Assembly: GCA_030827135.1 (NCBI GenBank) | Contig: JAURFE010000001.1 | Span: 876,368-940,367, forward strand | Direction: 5' to 3' | Source: Vicinamibacterales bacterium | GTDB lineage: Bacteria > Acidobacteriota > Vicinamibacteria > Vicinamibacterales > SCN-69-37 | Length of the DNA: 64,000 nucleotides | Part shown: positions 29,626 to 36,597 of the stretch, in pieces | Layout: each line of letters opens with the position of its first letter | Position numbering within the stretch: position 1 is the first letter of the stretch | The notes under the pieces: generated by a model | Told to the model about the DNA's origin: nothing | What the model saw: only the letters and a program-made list of their open reading frames with translations | The model's database searches: none | Translations under genes and position numbers: made by a program

Positions 29626-31302
29626 TCAGAACAACCCCACGACGCGGCCGCTGGCGTCGAGGTCAATGGCCTCGGCCGCAGGCACCTTCGGCAACCCGGG
29701 CATGGTCATGATGTCGCCGCAGACCATGACGACGAACTCGGCACCGGCGGCCAGTCGCACTTCGCGCACGTTCACCGTGTGGCCGGAGGGCGCGCCGCGC
29801 AGACCGGCATCCGTCGCAAACGAATACTGCGTCTTCGCCACACACACCGGGTAGTGCCCGTAGCCCTCGTCCTGGAGGCGCTTGATCTGTCCCCGCACCT
29901 TCGCGTCGGCGGAGATGTCCGCTGCGCCGTAGATCGTGGTGGCGACGGTTTTCATCTTGTCCCACAGCGACAGCGAGTCCTCGTAGACGAACCTGAATGT
30001 CGACGGGCCGGCCTCAACGACACCGACAACCGCCTTCGCGAGGTTCTCGGCACCGGCGCCGCCATGAGCCCAGTGCGTCGCCAGTACAACGGGGACCCCG
30101 CTCTGCGCCATGATCGCGTCGAGTCTGGCGATCTCGGCGTCGGTGTCGTCGGGGAACCGGTTGATCGCGACAACGGCGGGCAGACCGTAGTGGTTCCGGA
30201 CGTTGTTCACGTGCCGCTGCAGATTGGCGAGTCCCCGTTCCAGCGCGGACAAATCCTCCCGTCCCAACGCCGCACGGTCCACACCGCCGTGGTACTTCAA
30301 CGCGCGAATGGTCGCCACGATGACGCACGCGTCCGGGCGCAGCCCGGACTTGCGGCACTTGATGTCGATGAACTTCTCGGCGCCCAGGTCGGCACCAAAC
30401 CCGGCCTCGGTGACGACATAATCGGCGAGTTTCAGGGCCGCCTGCGTGGCCATCACGGAGTTGCAGCCGTGCGCGATATTCGCGAACGGACCGCCATGTA
30501 CAAACGCCGGGTTGTTTTCGAGCGTCTGCACCAGGTTCGGCTTGAGCGCATCCTTCAGCAGCACGGTCATCGCGCCATGCGCGTTGAGGTCACGCGCGCG
30601 CACGGGCTTCTGCTCGCGGGTGTAGCCCACGACGATGTTGCCGAGCCGTTCCTTCAGGTCGTGCAGGGACGTGGCCAGACAGAAGATCGCCATGACTTCG
30701 GACGCGACGACGATGTCGAACCCATCTTCGCGCGGATAGCCGTTGCCCGTGCCGCCGAGCGACACCACGATGTCGCGCAGGGCGCGATCGTTCATGTCCA
30801 CAACGCGCTTCCACTGAATGCGGCGCACATCGATGCCGAGCGCGTTCCCGTGGTGGATGTGGTTGTCGAGCAGCGCGGCGAGCAAATTGTTCGCCAGGGC
30901 GATGGCCGAGAAGTCGCCGGTGAAGTGGAGATTGATGTCCTCCATCGGCACGATCTGGGCGTGGCCACCGCCGGCCGCACCGCCCTTCATGCCGAACACG
31001 GGTCCCAATGAAGGCTCGCGCAGACAGATGATCGTCTTCTTGCCGATCCGGTTGAGTGCGTCTCCCAGTCCGACGGTCGTCGTCGTCTTGCCCTCGCCGG
31101 CCGGCGTGGGGCTGATGGCGGTGACGAGAATCAACTTGCCGTCCGGCCGGTCCTTCAGGCCCTGGACGAAGTCCAGCGAGATCTTCGCCTTGTAGTGCCC
31201 GTAGGGTTCGAGCTGGTCCTCGGGGATTCCCAGGCGCTCAGCGATCCCGGTCACTCGCTGCATCGTCGCAGCCTGGGCAATTTCGATGTCGGACTTCGGC
31301 AC
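29626..31302 (-). CDS. fhs: Formate--tetrahydrofolate ligase
   Basis: 558 residues, the usual length. The GTG start at 31302 has AAGGAG 6 nt upstream. The ATP-binding P-loop is [13 protein letters not shown] (about 60-72). Downstream family segments are intact: [19 protein letters not shown] near 95, the folate-site FHLTGDFSAI-like segment ([11 protein letters not shown] near 125) and [18 protein letters not shown] near 300. It makes 10-formyl-THF from formate, THF and ATP, or in reverse. It is the last gene of the formate dehydrogenase operon (44 bp after the Fe-S subunit), which ties formate/CO2 interconversion directly to one-carbon metabolism, as in the methyl branch of the Wood-Ljungdahl pathway or in formate assimilation. 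Confidence 0.97.
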
Positions 31303-31347
31303 GGGAGACTCCTTCGAAAGGAGATGATATCCCGGGACTGCGGACTG

Positions 31348-32226
31348 CTAGCGGTTCTGCACGAACTGCCACCCAAAGCGGCCCTTGATGCACAGGTTGC
31401 CGCTGGTGACGTCATGGTCGTGGGGCGACAGCACTTTGACGATGGTGTTGTCCTGGACGTGGAGTGAGAGCGTGCAGCCGACACCGCAGTAGGGGCAGAT
31501 GGTGTCGGTGGCGGTCTGTTGTGACTCGTCCCACGTGCCGGCGGCGCGCATGTCGTGCTCCGTCCTGAACATGAGTGCGCCGGTCGGGCAGACGCCGATG
31601 CAGTTGCCGCAGTAGACGCACGCGGAGTCTGGCAGACCAGTGTCAAACTCGGTGGAAATGGTCGCGCTGAAGCCCCGCCCCGCGACGGCAATCGCGAACG
31701 TGTGTTGCGCATCGGTGCCGCACGCTTCGACGCACTTGTAGCACAGCACACACTTGGAATAGTCGCGGACGTAGAGGTCGTTGTCGATCTTGACCGGCTG
31801 CTGCACCGTCGCCGGCGCGCCGTGACTGGAGTGGCCGGCCGGCGCCAGCCGCCCGGGCGTCGCACCGTACTTCTCCATGTCCGCTTTGAAGCGGGGTTCC
31901 GCCGTCGAGAGGTCCACCGAGGATGCCAGCAGCTCGAAGACGAGTTTCCGGCTGTGACGCACACGTTCGGAGTCGGTATGGATGACCATCCCGGGGTCGA
32001 CGGGCCGGGAACACGCGGGCACCAGCACGCGCGAGCCTTCGACTTCCACCACACACACCCGGCACACATTCACCGGGGTCAGGTTTTCGAGATAACAGAG
32101 CGTGGGCGTCTCGATGCCGATGGTCTTGCAGGCATTGACGATGGTGGTCCCTTCGGGCACGCGCACGGTCCGGCCGTCGATGGTGACCTCGACGGTGCGC
32201 ACAAACGGTAGAGGAACGGCGGTCAT
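31348..32226 (-). CDS. Formate dehydrogenase Fe-S subunit: N-terminal half of the large subunit
   Basis: 292 residues from the ATG at 32226, overlapping the previous stop (TGATG). In order: a plant-type [2Fe-2S] ferredoxin domain (Cys in PTLCYLENL, VNVCRVC and LVPAC, residues about 35-70); two [4Fe-4S] clusters in SKCVLCYKCVEAC (about 157-169) and SACVYCGNCIGVCP (about 201-214); then CPYCGVGC ... SGNLCIKGRFGWQF (about 244-288), which is the Fe4S4 domain that normally opens the molybdopterin subunit of FdhF/FdhA. The protein stops right after it. The molybdopterin part is a separate gene two cistrons upstream. It should relay electrons from the active site to the NuoEF-type module. Confidence 0.9.
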   Translation of the reverse strand: MTAVPLPFVRTVEVTIDGRTVRVPEGTTIVNACKTIGIETPTLCYLENLTPVNVCRVCVVEVEGSRVLVPACSRPVDPGMVIHTDSERVRHSRKLVFELLASSVDLSTAEPRFKADMEKYGATPGRLAPAGHSSHGAPATVQQPVKIDNDLYVRDYSKCVLCYKCVEACGTDAQHTFAIAVAGRGFSATISTEFDTGLPDSACVYCGNCIGVCPTGALMFRTEHDMRAAGTWDESQQTATDTICPYCGVGCTLSLHVQDNTIVKVLSPHDHDVTSGNLCIKGRFGWQFVQNR

Positions 32227-34022
32227 CACGAGCGGTGCTCCAGGGGGAACTTCTTCAGCGCGCTTTCCACGGCACTGGCCGCGGTCTGGCCAAGACCACA
32301 AATCGACGCGTCTCGCATGACGCGCGCGAGGTCGGCGATCAACGTCTTCTCCGTCGCGCGGTCACCGGCCGTCCTGGCCGAGACCAATCGATGGAGCGAT
32401 TCCTCCTGCCGGATGGTGCCGATGCGGCAGGGCACACACTGGCCGCAGGATTCGTCGCGGAAGAACGAGGCGATGCGGATCAGGATGTCGCCAAGGTCCA
32501 CGCGGTCGTCGAACACCATGACCACACCGGACCCGAGCGTCGCGTTGGCCGCCCGGGTGCCCTCGAACGTCAGGGGCATGTCCAGTTCATCCGGCGTCAC
32601 AAACACGCCGGCCGCGCCGCCGAGCAGAATGGCCTGCAGGGGCCGGCCGCCCTCCACGCCACCGGCCATGTCGAGCAACCCACGGAGCGTGATGCCGAAC
32701 GGCACTTCATAGACGCCGGGCTTTGTCACACACCCCGACAGGCAGAACAACTTGGAGCCCGTCGAGGCGGCCGTGCCGATGCCCGCATACGCCGGACCGC
32801 CTTCGAGCACGACGTCGATCACGTTCACGAGGGTCTCGACGTTGTTGATCACCGTCGGCTTGTGGAACAGCCCCGACTGCACGGGAAACGGCGGCTTGTT
32901 GCGCGGTTCGCCGCGAAACCCTTCGAGCGAGTTGAAGAGGGATGTTTCTTCGCCGCAGATGTAGGCGCCCGCGCCGCGACGGAGATCCAGGTGGAACCGC
33001 GCGCCCGCGCCGCCGATGTGGTCGCCCAGCCAGCCGCGGAGCGCCGCCTGCTCAATCGCCGACTGCAGGCGCATCGTCGCCCGCGGATACTCGCCGCGGA
33101 TGTAGATGAACCCCTGCTCGGCGCCAATCGCGAGACCGGCGATGGTCATGGCCTCGACGAGCGCGAAGGGGTCCTCTTCCATCAGGACACGGTCCTTGAA
33201 GGTGCCCGGCTCGGATTCGTCCGCGTTGCACACGAGGTAATGCGGACGCACGGGTGACCGCGCAACAGCCTCCCACTTGCGGCCCGTCGGAAACGCGGCG
33301 CCACCGCGCCCCAGCAACTTCGAATCGGTGATTTCGCGCAGCACCGCTTCGGGACCGATGTCGAGCGCGCGCCTGAGCGCCTGATAGCCGCCGTGGGCGC
33401 GATAGTCGTCGAGGCTCGCCGGATCCGCGGCCCCGACGCGCCGAAGCAGGCGCAGCGCCGGAACGCGAGGCGCGTCTGCCTGCGGCACGGCCCGGCCGAA
33501 AGGTTCAGGCACCACGCCGGCCGACACGGCCGCCGTCAACACGGGCAACGTGGCCTGCGTGATCGTCCGGTCCACCGGGGCCGCACCAGCGTGCTGCACA
33601 AGCGCCACCGGTGCCTGCTCGCAGTAGCCAAGGCACGGGGAACGTTTCCAGGTCCCCTCCTCGCCGCTGCCGGCCGGCCCGAACTGCGCCTCAAGGGACC
33701 GACAAATCCCCTCGGCGCCTTTCACGCGGCACGCGATGTCGTCGCACACGTGCACAACGCGCGGCGCCTGGCGCTCTGTCGAGAACAGGTGATAAAACGT
33801 CGCGACGCCGTAGGCCTCCGCCGGCGGCACCGACAGTTGTGCACAGATGTGGTTGAGCGCACCCTCGCTGATCCAGCCGGTGCACGCCTGCGCGGCATGG
33901 AGGGCCGGCAGCAGCATGTGACGCGTGCCCGGTCCGGTGCCCGCCACCGCCGCGATGGCGGCATCAATCGCCGCACGTTCCTCAGCCGACGCGCTCGCGC
34001 CGGGTATCAGGTGTAAATCCAC
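32226..34022 (-). CDS. NuoE-NuoF fusion: NAD(P)-linked diaphorase subunit of formate dehydrogenase
   Basis: 598 residues from the GTG at 34022, one base after the TAG of the catalytic subunit. Residues 1-160 are NuoE-like, with thioredoxin-fold [2Fe-2S] cysteines in VCDDIACRVKG and SPCLGYCEQAP. Residues 200-598 are NuoF-like: LLGRGGAAFPTGRKWE (FMN/NADH loop), VCNADESEPGTFKDR, YICGEETSLFNSLEG (NADH site) and the [4Fe-4S] set SCGQCVPCRIG plus a later ICGLGQ. It should pass electrons between formate dehydrogenase and NAD(P)+ in the cytosol. The fusion of both halves is like FdsB-type and HoxF-type subunits. The middle gene of the operon. Confidence 0.95.
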   Translation of the reverse strand: MDLHLIPGASASAEERAAIDAAIAAVAGTGPGTRHMLLPALHAAQACTGWISEGALNHICAQLSVPPAEAYGVATFYHLFSTERQAPRVVHVCDDIACRVKGAEGICRSLEAQFGPAGSGEEGTWKRSPCLGYCEQAPVALVQHAGAAPVDRTITQATLPVLTAAVSAGVVPEPFGRAVPQADAPRVPALRLLRRVGAADPASLDDYRAHGGYQALRRALDIGPEAVLREITDSKLLGRGGAAFPTGRKWEAVARSPVRPHYLVCNADESEPGTFKDRVLMEEDPFALVEAMTIAGLAIGAEQGFIYIRGEYPRATMRLQSAIEQAALRGWLGDHIGGAGARFHLDLRRGAGAYICGEETSLFNSLEGFRGEPRNKPPFPVQSGLFHKPTVINNVETLVNVIDVVLEGGPAYAGIGTAASTGSKLFCLSGCVTKPGVYEVPFGITLRGLLDMAGGVEGGRPLQAILLGGAAGVFVTPDELDMPLTFEGTRAANATLGSGVVMVFDDRVDLGDILIRIASFFRDESCGQCVPCRIGTIRQEESLHRLVSARTAGDRATEKTLIADLARVMRDASICGLGQTAASAVESALKKFPLEHRS

Positions 34023-34023
34023 G

Positions 34024-35949
34024 CTACCGTCTGCCTCCGGCGCCCACCGGTTCAGGCACACCGAGTTTTTCGATCCGGATGGCCGCCGCCTTGAACTCCG
34101 CTGTTCCCGACTTCGGGTCCACTGCGTCAATCGTGAGGATGTTGGTCTCCACCTCATCCGGAAAATGCATCGTGATGAACGTCAGCCCGGGACGCAGACC
34201 CGGATCGATCTTGATGGGCGCTTCGATCGCGCCGCGTCTGGAGACGATGCGTACGACCTCGCCTGGGACCACGCCCAACCGGGCGGCATCCTCGGGTGAC
34301 ACCTCAATGCGTTCACCATGGCGCAGGGGCGACGTGTAGCCACCGGTCTGCACGCCGGTGTTGAACGAATCCAATCGGCGTCCGGTCGTGAGCCGCAGCG
34401 GGAACTCGTCGGTCAACGTGTCGACCGGAGGCGAATGATGCACGACCTGGAAACCGGCGCGGGCGCCTTCCACCGGATCGGACCACAGGCGCGTATGCAG
34501 TGTCGGACTTCCCGGATGGTCGAGTGTCGGGCACGGCCACTGCAGGCCGTTCTCCGATTCAAGCCGGTCATAACTCATGCCACCGTGCCACGGCGAAAGG
34601 CGCTGCACTTCCTTCCACACCTCGGCGGCCATTGGGGCACCCCAGTCCCGGCCGAGCTTCTTCGCAAGCAACGCGAGGATCTCCAGGTCGTCCTTCGCCT
34701 GGCCAGGAGGGTCGAGCGCTTTGCGCACGCGCTGCACACGACGTTCGCTGCTCGTGACGGTCCCTTCCGATTCGCACCACGACGCCGCGGCCGGCAGCAC
34801 CACGTGCGCCACCTCGGCCGTCTTGGTCAGGAAGATGTCCTGCACCACCAGATGCTCCAGCCCCTCAAGCAGCCGGCGGGTGCGTTTGGCATCCGCCTCC
34901 GACTGCATCGGGTTTTCGCCAAGTACATACACGGCCTTCAGGTCGCCGTGCTCCATCGCCTCGAACATCTGGCTCAGATGCCAGCCGCGTCTGTCGGGCA
35001 CGGTGGTGCCGTACTCGCGCTCGAACTTCGCGCGCAGCACCGGATCTTCGACGTCCTGGCCGCCGACGAACTTGTTGGGAATCGCCCCCATGTCGCCGCC
35101 ACCCTGCACGTTGTTCTGCCCACGAAGCGGCACGAGCCCGGATCCCCACCGGCCGACATGGCCGGTCAGCAGCGACAGGTTGATGATCGCAAACACGTTG
35201 TCCACGGCGTTGTGGTGTTCCGTGATCCCGAGCGTCCAGCAGATCTGTGCACGATCCGCGCGCGCATATGCATGCGCCATCTCGCGGATCACCTCCGCCT
35301 TGACGCCGGTCAGCGCCTCACCCCGATCAAGCGTGTACGAGTCCACGGCCGTCTTGTAGGCCTCAAACCCCTCCGTCGCACGCTGGATGAACGCCGTGTT
35401 GCAGAGCCCCGCCGCGATAATCTCCCGACCAATCGTGTTCGCCAGCGCGACGTCGGATCCGACCTCAAGCCCCAGCCACACGTCGGCCCACGCGACGGAA
35501 CTGGTCCGTCGCGGATCGATGGCGTACATCCGCGCGCCGTGCTTCTTCCCCTTCAGCAGGTGGTGGAAGAAGATCGGGTGCGTCTCACGGGCGTTGGATC
35601 CCCACAGGATGATGAGGTCGGTTTCCTCGATCTCCTGGTAGGCGCTCGTGCCGCCACCCGCCCCGAACACCGTCGTCAGACCGACGACGCTGGGAGCGTG
35701 TCAAGTTCGGTTGCAACTGTCGATGTTGTTGCTGCCGAGGACGCCGCGGGTGAACTTCTGCGCCAGATAGTTCACTTCGTTGGAGGCCTTCGAGCAACTG
35801 AACATCCCGAAGCTCCAGGGGCCGTGCTCACCGACGATGCGGCCGAATCCGTCGGCCGCGCGTGTCAGCGCTTCGTCCCAGGACGCCTCGCGCAGTCGGC
35901 CGTGCTCACGCACGAGCGGCTGCGTCAGTCGCGTGTATCTCTCGCTCAT
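34024..35949 (-). CDS. fdhA: Formate dehydrogenase catalytic subunit, selenocysteine-containing (TGA read through)
   Basis: 641 residues counting Sec. Read naively, the frame breaks into two ORFs at a TGA (35701-35703). The break falls in IDSCNRT-(TGA)-HAPSV, exactly where formate dehydrogenases carry the Mo/W-ligating Cys or Sec followed by His, so residue 83 is Sec. A hairpin with loop GGTCT lies 11 nt downstream (35671-35689). Other family marks are intact: WGSNARETHPIFF (conserved Arg), GITEHHNAVDN, RGQNNVQGGGDMG, and the C-terminal molybdopterin-dinucleotide domain (FPLRLTTGRRLDSFNT). It oxidises formate or reduces CO2. The usual N-terminal Fe4S4 domain is missing here; it is on the subunit at 31348-32226. 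ATG start at 35949 gives RYTRLTQPLVRE, which follows that domain in one-piece enzymes. Confidence 0.93.
35671..35689 (-). promoter_or_regulatory. SECIS hairpin for the formate dehydrogenase UGA
   Basis: On the minus strand a perfect 7-bp stem CGTCGTC / GACGACG encloses the loop GGTCT. The stem begins 11 nt, and the loop 18 nt, after the TGA. Bacterial SECIS elements need a short stem-loop with a G at the start of the loop at about this distance, and the GGUCU loop is the one I recall for E. coli fdhF. It lies within the coding sequence, as bacterial SECIS elements do. Confidence 0.88.
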
Positions 35950-36019
35950 GCGACGAAGTTTACCCCAACCAGCCCTGATACCATCCGGCGTACGTGCTGT
36001 CCCGCCTCAGGAGGTCCCC

Positions 36020-36577
36020 ATGGTGTCCGTGATGTCGCTCGCAGTGCCGATCGTCCTCTCCGCCGTAGTGGTGTTTCTGGTCAGTTCGGTCATTCACATG
36101 GCGTTGAACTACCACAATGCCGACTACGCGGTCCTGCCGAAGGAAGACGAGATCCTCGAGACGTTCCGGCGGCTCAACGTGACACCCGGCGACTACGTCG
36201 CGCCCTATGCCAATTCCCCGGAGTCGATGAAGGCGCCGGCGTATCTGGAGAAGATGCAGCGCGGCCCCGGCCTGGTGGTCACGGTCTGGAAGACCAGCCA
36301 CTTCAACATGGGCGCGACGCTCGGGCAGTGGTTTGTCTACCTGCTCGTTGTCAGCCTCTTCACGGGGTATGTGCTGAGCCGGGTGTTCCCGCCTGATGCG
36401 CACTACATGCATGTCTTCCGTCTCGCCAGCACCGTGGCATTCATGGGCTACGCACTCGGCATGCCGCAGGCGAACATCTGGCACCGGAAGGACTGGGGCT
36501 CCACACTGCGGTCCATGTTCGACGGACTGCTCTACGGGCTCGTCACCGCCGGTGTCTTCGGCTGGCTCTGGCCGTAA
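36020..36577 (+). CDS. Four-helix integral membrane protein of unknown function
   Basis: 185 residues from the ATG at 36020, which has AGGAGG 5 nt upstream and so fixes the start. TM segments are predicted at about 5-27 (LAVPIVLSAVVVFLVSSVIHM), 97-120 (LGQWFVYLLVVSLFTGYVLS), 131-150 and 165-183 (LLYGLVTAGVFGWLW). A soluble stretch (residues 30-95) with LNYHNADYAVLPKEDEILE and YVAPYANSPESMKAPAY separates the first two. I do not recognise a named family. It is divergent from the formate dehydrogenase gene (70 bp apart) and upstream of a P-type ATPase. Confidence 0.7.
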   Translation: MVSVMSLAVPIVLSAVVVFLVSSVIHMALNYHNADYAVLPKEDEILETFRRLNVTPGDYVAPYANSPESMKAPAYLEKMQRGPGLVVTVWKTSHFNMGATLGQWFVYLLVVSLFTGYVLSRVFPPDAHYMHVFRLASTVAFMGYALGMPQANIWHRKDWGSTLRSMFDGLLYGLVTAGVFGWLWP

Positions 36578-36597
36578 ACCACGTTGAGAGAGCATCG

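Follow-up and report, generated by a model that had tools for sequence, protein, structure and literature searches.

A reading frame that runs through a single in-frame TGA in the 64,000-nucleotide window (the whole stretch of DNA analysed) encodes FdhA, which we judge with about 95% probability to be a genuine selenoprotein and, by its sequence, the catalytic subunit of a formate dehydrogenase (FDH) that is soluble, uses molybdenum or tungsten and probably depends on NAD+. Selenocysteine (Sec) written by UGA is ordinary biology for this FDH; the most interesting part is a split that the first-pass annotation did not contain. FdhA itself lacks a [4Fe-4S] domain, and the alpha subunit is distributed over two genes. 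The features discussed below are the following.

29626-31302, minus strand: formate-tetrahydrofolate ligase, the next gene after fdhG, in the same direction
31348-32226, minus strand: fdhG (fdhC), 292 aa, 2Fe-2S and 4Fe-4S ferredoxin domains and a C-terminal Molybdop_Fe4S4 domain
32226-34022, minus strand: fdhB, 598 aa, NuoE-NuoF fusion (2Fe-2S thioredoxin-like, FMN/NAD-binding 51K and 4Fe-4S domains)
34024-35949, minus strand: fdhA, Moco/bis-MGD catalytic subunit matched by TIGR01591 and Pfam, 641 codons including Sec83, without an N-terminal Fe4S4 domain
35671-35689, minus strand: bacterial SECIS hairpin, 7-bp stem and GGUCU loop, 11 nt past the UGA
35701-35703, minus strand: UGA for Sec83, the active-site metal ligand by homology
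35960-36595, minus strand: hydrophobic predicted protein, 211 aa, family unassigned, directly upstream of fdhA

The in-frame UGA of fdhA and its conservation

The UGA is the only one in the 641-codon frame (35949-34024, minus strand) and stands at residue 83, flanked by CNRT and HAPSV when TGA is read as U. The first-pass annotation had placed it between these two motifs with the frame unchanged downstream, and was right in every detail. Its expectation that automated calling would break the gene was also borne out: the open reading frame list made with TGA as a stop holds only a 548-aa downstream piece starting at a GTG (35670), and this gene call lacks the first 93 residues, the catalytic one among them. 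In alignments U83 falls on the catalytic Cys/Sec of FDHs with known structures, and His-84, the catalytic histidine beside Sec, and Arg-276, the arginine of RGQNNVQG, are invariant in 21 diverse members. The protein matches the Pfam Molybdopterin and Molydop_binding domains and covers positions 51-672 of TIGR01591. A structure model of FdhA (mean pLDDT 77, pTM 0.81) gave TM scores of 0.85-0.86 against E. coli FDH-H and Rhodobacter capsulatus FdsA (0.86 against 6tg9_A). E. coli FDH-H (fdhF) has Sec at the homologous position and the same catalytic fold as FdhA.

Relatives drawn from public genomes all carry the codon in the first set (TGA at residue 83 in 109/109 loci, representing 100 distinct genes), and the TGA is present at this position in 120 homologues with at least 60% identity from about a dozen phyla. 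Two fdhA genes show damage close to the site, namely a frame change near residue 97 in genome G293 (locus L051, near 1504-1508) and an interruption around residue 86 in genome G616 (L152, between 1031 and 1190); both can be assembly errors or decay.

Two Actinomycetota genomes of about 9-10 Mb (G563 with locus L146, G596 with L147) encode a split FdhA with TGC in place of TGA, and in both the hairpin is eroded. No SelA was found in either genome, and all 13 neighbouring Sec members that were tested have one. L146 and L147 thus represent a natural Sec-to-Cys change and offer a natural test of SECIS function, with Sec-to-Cys members that lost the intact hairpin and genomes without SelA. In L147 the hairpin stretch still folds well with a changed loop.

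The hairpin behind the UGA and the Sec-decoding genes

The first-pass annotation described a 7-bp hairpin with a GGTCT loop at the expected distance from the codon; the hairpin (CGUCGUC-GGUCU-GACGACG, 35689-35671) does start 11 nt past the UGA, and its predicted fold agrees with the one described, with a computed energy of -9.8 kcal/mol (z = -2.5). In the SECIS of E. coli fdhF, too, the loop is GGUCU and lies about 11 nt past the UGA. Taken overall, the 39-nt fold shows no unusual stability (z = -1.1); we therefore gave no weight to stability by itself and relied instead on covariation and codon freezing. A scan of the window covering 1,758 TGA triplets on both strands for a stem of 6 bp located 9-14 nt downstream with a GGTCT loop found the fdhA site as its sole match; 20 shuffled windows gave 0.0 matches on average. 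The corresponding TGA...GGTCT pattern search in the genome returned five further sites, equal to the background rate of the controls, and the hairpin sequence itself occurs at the fdhA site only. In Rfam, the hairpin stretch had no matching SECIS model and gave one chance match below threshold.

Selection on the hairpin is evident from the alignments. Wobble entropies of codons 88-92, which form the hairpin, are 0, 0, 0.14, 0 and 0 bits, whereas the median for the gene is 1.37; besides the UGA and the Met/Trp columns, a single further fdhA codon lies below 0.2 bits. The loop reads GGTCT in 91/93 distinct windows and GGGCT in the remaining ones. Two-sided compensatory changes were observed in the wider family at three inner stem pairs (C-G to G-C, G-C to A-U and C-G to U-A), and this covariation signal was destroyed or weakened when the partner was slid by one to three columns. 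All six core stem pairs are kept in 130/130 Sec genes, while the complete hairpin and the GGTCT loop are each found in 0/11 Cys genes.

The genome encodes a 98-nt tRNA-Sec (selC) with anticodon TCA on contig C22, a SelB of 640 aa on contig C11 that scores above the curated cut-off and covers positions 2-578 of 581 in TIGR00475, the C-terminal RNA-binding part included, and a SelD of 349 aa on contig C70, above the cut-off and with a Cys active site. FdhD, which is needed for sulfuration of FDH, is also on contig C22. The selA gene is in two pieces, an N-terminal part at the end of contig C5 (L001) and a C-terminal part at the end of contig C4 (L002), with about 200 residues missing between them. 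The other two species sampled from this genus have an intact SelA, and the break is most likely an assembly gap. The earlier claim that the organism decodes UGA as Sec is therefore supported by selC, selB and selD, with a selA that is probably broken only by contig ends. Of the four genes whose joint absence the first-pass annotation had named as evidence against it, three were found whole and selA was found only as contig-end pieces.

SelA distribution agrees with this picture. In the Acidobacteriota sample, SelA is present in 30/30 genomes with this FdhA compared with 253/396 overall, an association to which no exact probability is attached because relatedness inflates it. The three genomes sampled from other genera of the window genome's family have neither this FdhA nor SelA; one of the three carries a fused FDH that is only distantly related and lacks an in-frame stop. 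Among a further 40 genomes, mostly from other phyla, 37 have SelA and the three without it are MAGs of unknown completeness.

A stop codon inside a frame, at which ordinary callers break the gene, could in itself reflect a nonsense mutation, an error in sequencing or the decay of a pseudogene. The conservation of the TGA in 120 homologues is comparative evidence that excludes mutation and error, and the frozen wobble sites, the covarying hairpin and the Sec genes in the genome also stand against this reading, which we regard as extremely improbable. An altered genetic code, in which UGA specifies an ordinary amino acid, would also explain why the frame runs on through the TGA; yet fdhB, the next gene of the operon, ends at a TGA that overlaps the ATG of fdhG, fdhA contains one in-frame TGA only, and a tRNA-Sec with a UCA anticodon is present. 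With TGA used as a stop next door, the altered code is refuted and its chance is negligible. The claim of a Sec-containing FDH thus holds, supported by the UGA at the catalytic position, the Sec genes, the homologues and the hairpin. It adds a confirmed selenoprotein, cut short by automatic annotation, to a phylum for which few had been listed: a 2006 survey gave three selenoprotein families and four proteins for Acidobacteria (PMC1794560). Earlier papers had already reported that Acidobacteria use Sec and that some Sec users are aerobic (PMC1794560, PMC5029168).

An alpha subunit divided between two genes

A Pfam domain search did not find Molybdop_Fe4S4 in FdhA. This domain of the alpha subunit is located instead at the C-terminus of FdhG, the product of the third operon gene, behind the NuoE-NuoF fusion. 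Residues 36-314 of FdhG (numbering of the longer ORF) align to residues 24-303 of 6tg9_A and residues 6-628 of FdhA to residues 307-933 of the same chain, so that FdhG followed by FdhA matches FdsA of R. capsulatus, a single chain, from end to end and the alpha subunit is cut between residues 303 and 307. TIGR01591 is likewise divided at model position 50|51, with positions 1-50 scoring 53.1 bits on FdhG. FdhA alone reaches 640.6 bits and as one chain falls below the curated cut-off of 666.25, as expected if 50 model positions lie on FdhG. The CxxCxxxC...CIKGRF motif, including Lys-281, is conserved at the FdhG C-terminus, and Lys-281 corresponds by motif to Lys-44 of E. coli FDH-H, a residue situated between metal and cluster that is needed for full activity (PMC12176258). 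The structure model of FdhG is poor (pLDDT 54).

The split form occupies one side of a single branch in a 73-row tree (SH-aLRT 100). Judging from record titles, its members belong to Acidobacteriota, Chloroflexota, Planctomycetota, Gemmatimonadota, Rokuibacteriota and Actinomycetota, with further members in Bacillota, Spirochaetota, Myxococcota, Eremiobacterota and Dormiibacterota. The phyla are intermixed in the tree, which suggests horizontal transfer. The sister of the split clade is the actinobacterial fused Sec-FDH (L148, L150, L153), which shares Sec and a GGUCU-loop hairpin with the enzyme here at 51-53% identity and differs in having Fe4S4 fused to the catalytic domain. The split version of the enzyme is widespread and little noticed; standard gene calling hides it twice, by taking the UGA as a stop and by the position of the domain on another gene. 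A literature search returned no description of a conserved class with the Moco and Fe4S4 domains on separate chains, which is not proof of absence. We consider it likely that these enzymes form a monophyletic, multi-phylum class of Sec-FDH in which the metal site lies on a different polypeptide from the nearest [4Fe-4S] cluster and Lys-281. If so, the first electron transfer step would cross a subunit interface, and the split alpha would provide a natural two-piece FDH active site, of possible use for work on the electron step from metal to [4Fe-4S].

Two side observations concern the compared loci. About 1-4 kb of extra DNA lies between the fdhA, nuoEF and fdhG parts in L071, L075, L105, L107, L112, L118 and L119, mostly from Chloroflexota. 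A public MAG titled 'Acidimicrobiia' (L052, VFZF01000004.1) equals L023 in the compared stretch and falls in the same genus as the window genome; other members place that genus in Acidobacteriota, and the record title of L052 looks wrong.

In R. capsulatus FdsABG, alpha is one chain with a cysteine at the active site. The FdsABG structures (6TG9/6TGA) contain the same domains, whose order is also that of FdhG followed by FdhA, and NuoE- and NuoF-like partners with an FMN/NAD site as here. The enzyme of the window differs in that the two partners are fused in one gene, alpha is made from two genes with the Moco part first, and Sec replaces Cys. E. coli FDH-H carries an Fe4S4 domain itself and lacks NAD-reducing subunits. 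A counterpart in layout comes from Actinomycetospora chiangmaiensis DSM 45062, for which three Sec-FDHs are reported, among them a cytoplasmic and predicted NAD+-dependent FDH3 with Sec in FdhA3; its subunits of 640/614/316 aa were all detected by proteomics, and formate removal by the organism depends on selenium (PMC7176365). Both enzymes have three subunits, with lengths of 641/598/292 here, and Sec in alpha; the organism is from a different phylum, and the likeness is one of lengths, subunit number and Sec. Other Actinomycetota members do fall inside the split clade.

Since most molybdopterin FDHs have the Fe4S4 domain at the N-terminus, its absence from FdhA could be put down to a mis-chosen start or an assembly error, the true FdhA being full length. 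We find this very improbable: no in-frame CxxCxxxC Fe4S4 motif exists upstream of FdhA in any of 80 loci (0/80), the order FdhA, NuoE-NuoF and FdhG with Fe4S4 is found downstream in a counted 56/80 (most of the remaining loci stop short of it or give no match), and the split form is one clade with a support of 100. The direction of catalysis is a separate matter. Here and in close relatives, fdhG is followed by the ligase gene in the same orientation, and the hydrogen-dependent CO2 reductase is among the closest chains of known structure, as would suit an enzyme acting mainly as a CO2 reductase that feeds formate to the adjoining formate-tetrahydrofolate ligase for C1 assimilation. In most other loci the FDH operon is not beside the ligase within the stretches examined, and FDH3 of A. 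chiangmaiensis, the only relative by layout that has been studied, is associated with the removal of formate (PMC7176365). A predominantly CO2-reducing role is therefore unlikely, and formate oxidation is presumably the main direction.

Proposed electron path and neighbouring genes

In the mechanism we propose, SelB and Sec-tRNA would bind the hairpin just behind the UGA and Sec would be inserted at residue 83, where it would ligate the metal. FdhA, FdhB and FdhG would assemble into a three-gene complex, and formate would be oxidised at the bis-MGD metal site of FdhA. Electrons would then pass from FdhA to the [4Fe-4S] cluster of FdhG, which would normally sit N-terminally on the chain of the metal site, onward through the ferredoxin-like clusters of FdhG and finally to the NuoE-NuoF fusion, whose FMN, by domain homology, would reduce NAD+. 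NAD+ as the acceptor is predicted solely from the NuoF-like subunit. The ligase as a neighbour, retained beside the FDH in close relatives only, leaves room for a role in C1 assimilation or for the CO2-reducing direction.

The 211-aa hydrophobic protein encoded at 35960-36595 has no Pfam or NCBIfam match and is grouped with the operon by position only. It was found only in the closest relative, where it is 52% identical, and is probably fast-evolving. Downstream, the open reading frame at 31251-32069 (minus strand) was rejected as a shadow and not a gene, the real gene there being fdhG at 31348-32226 on the same strand.
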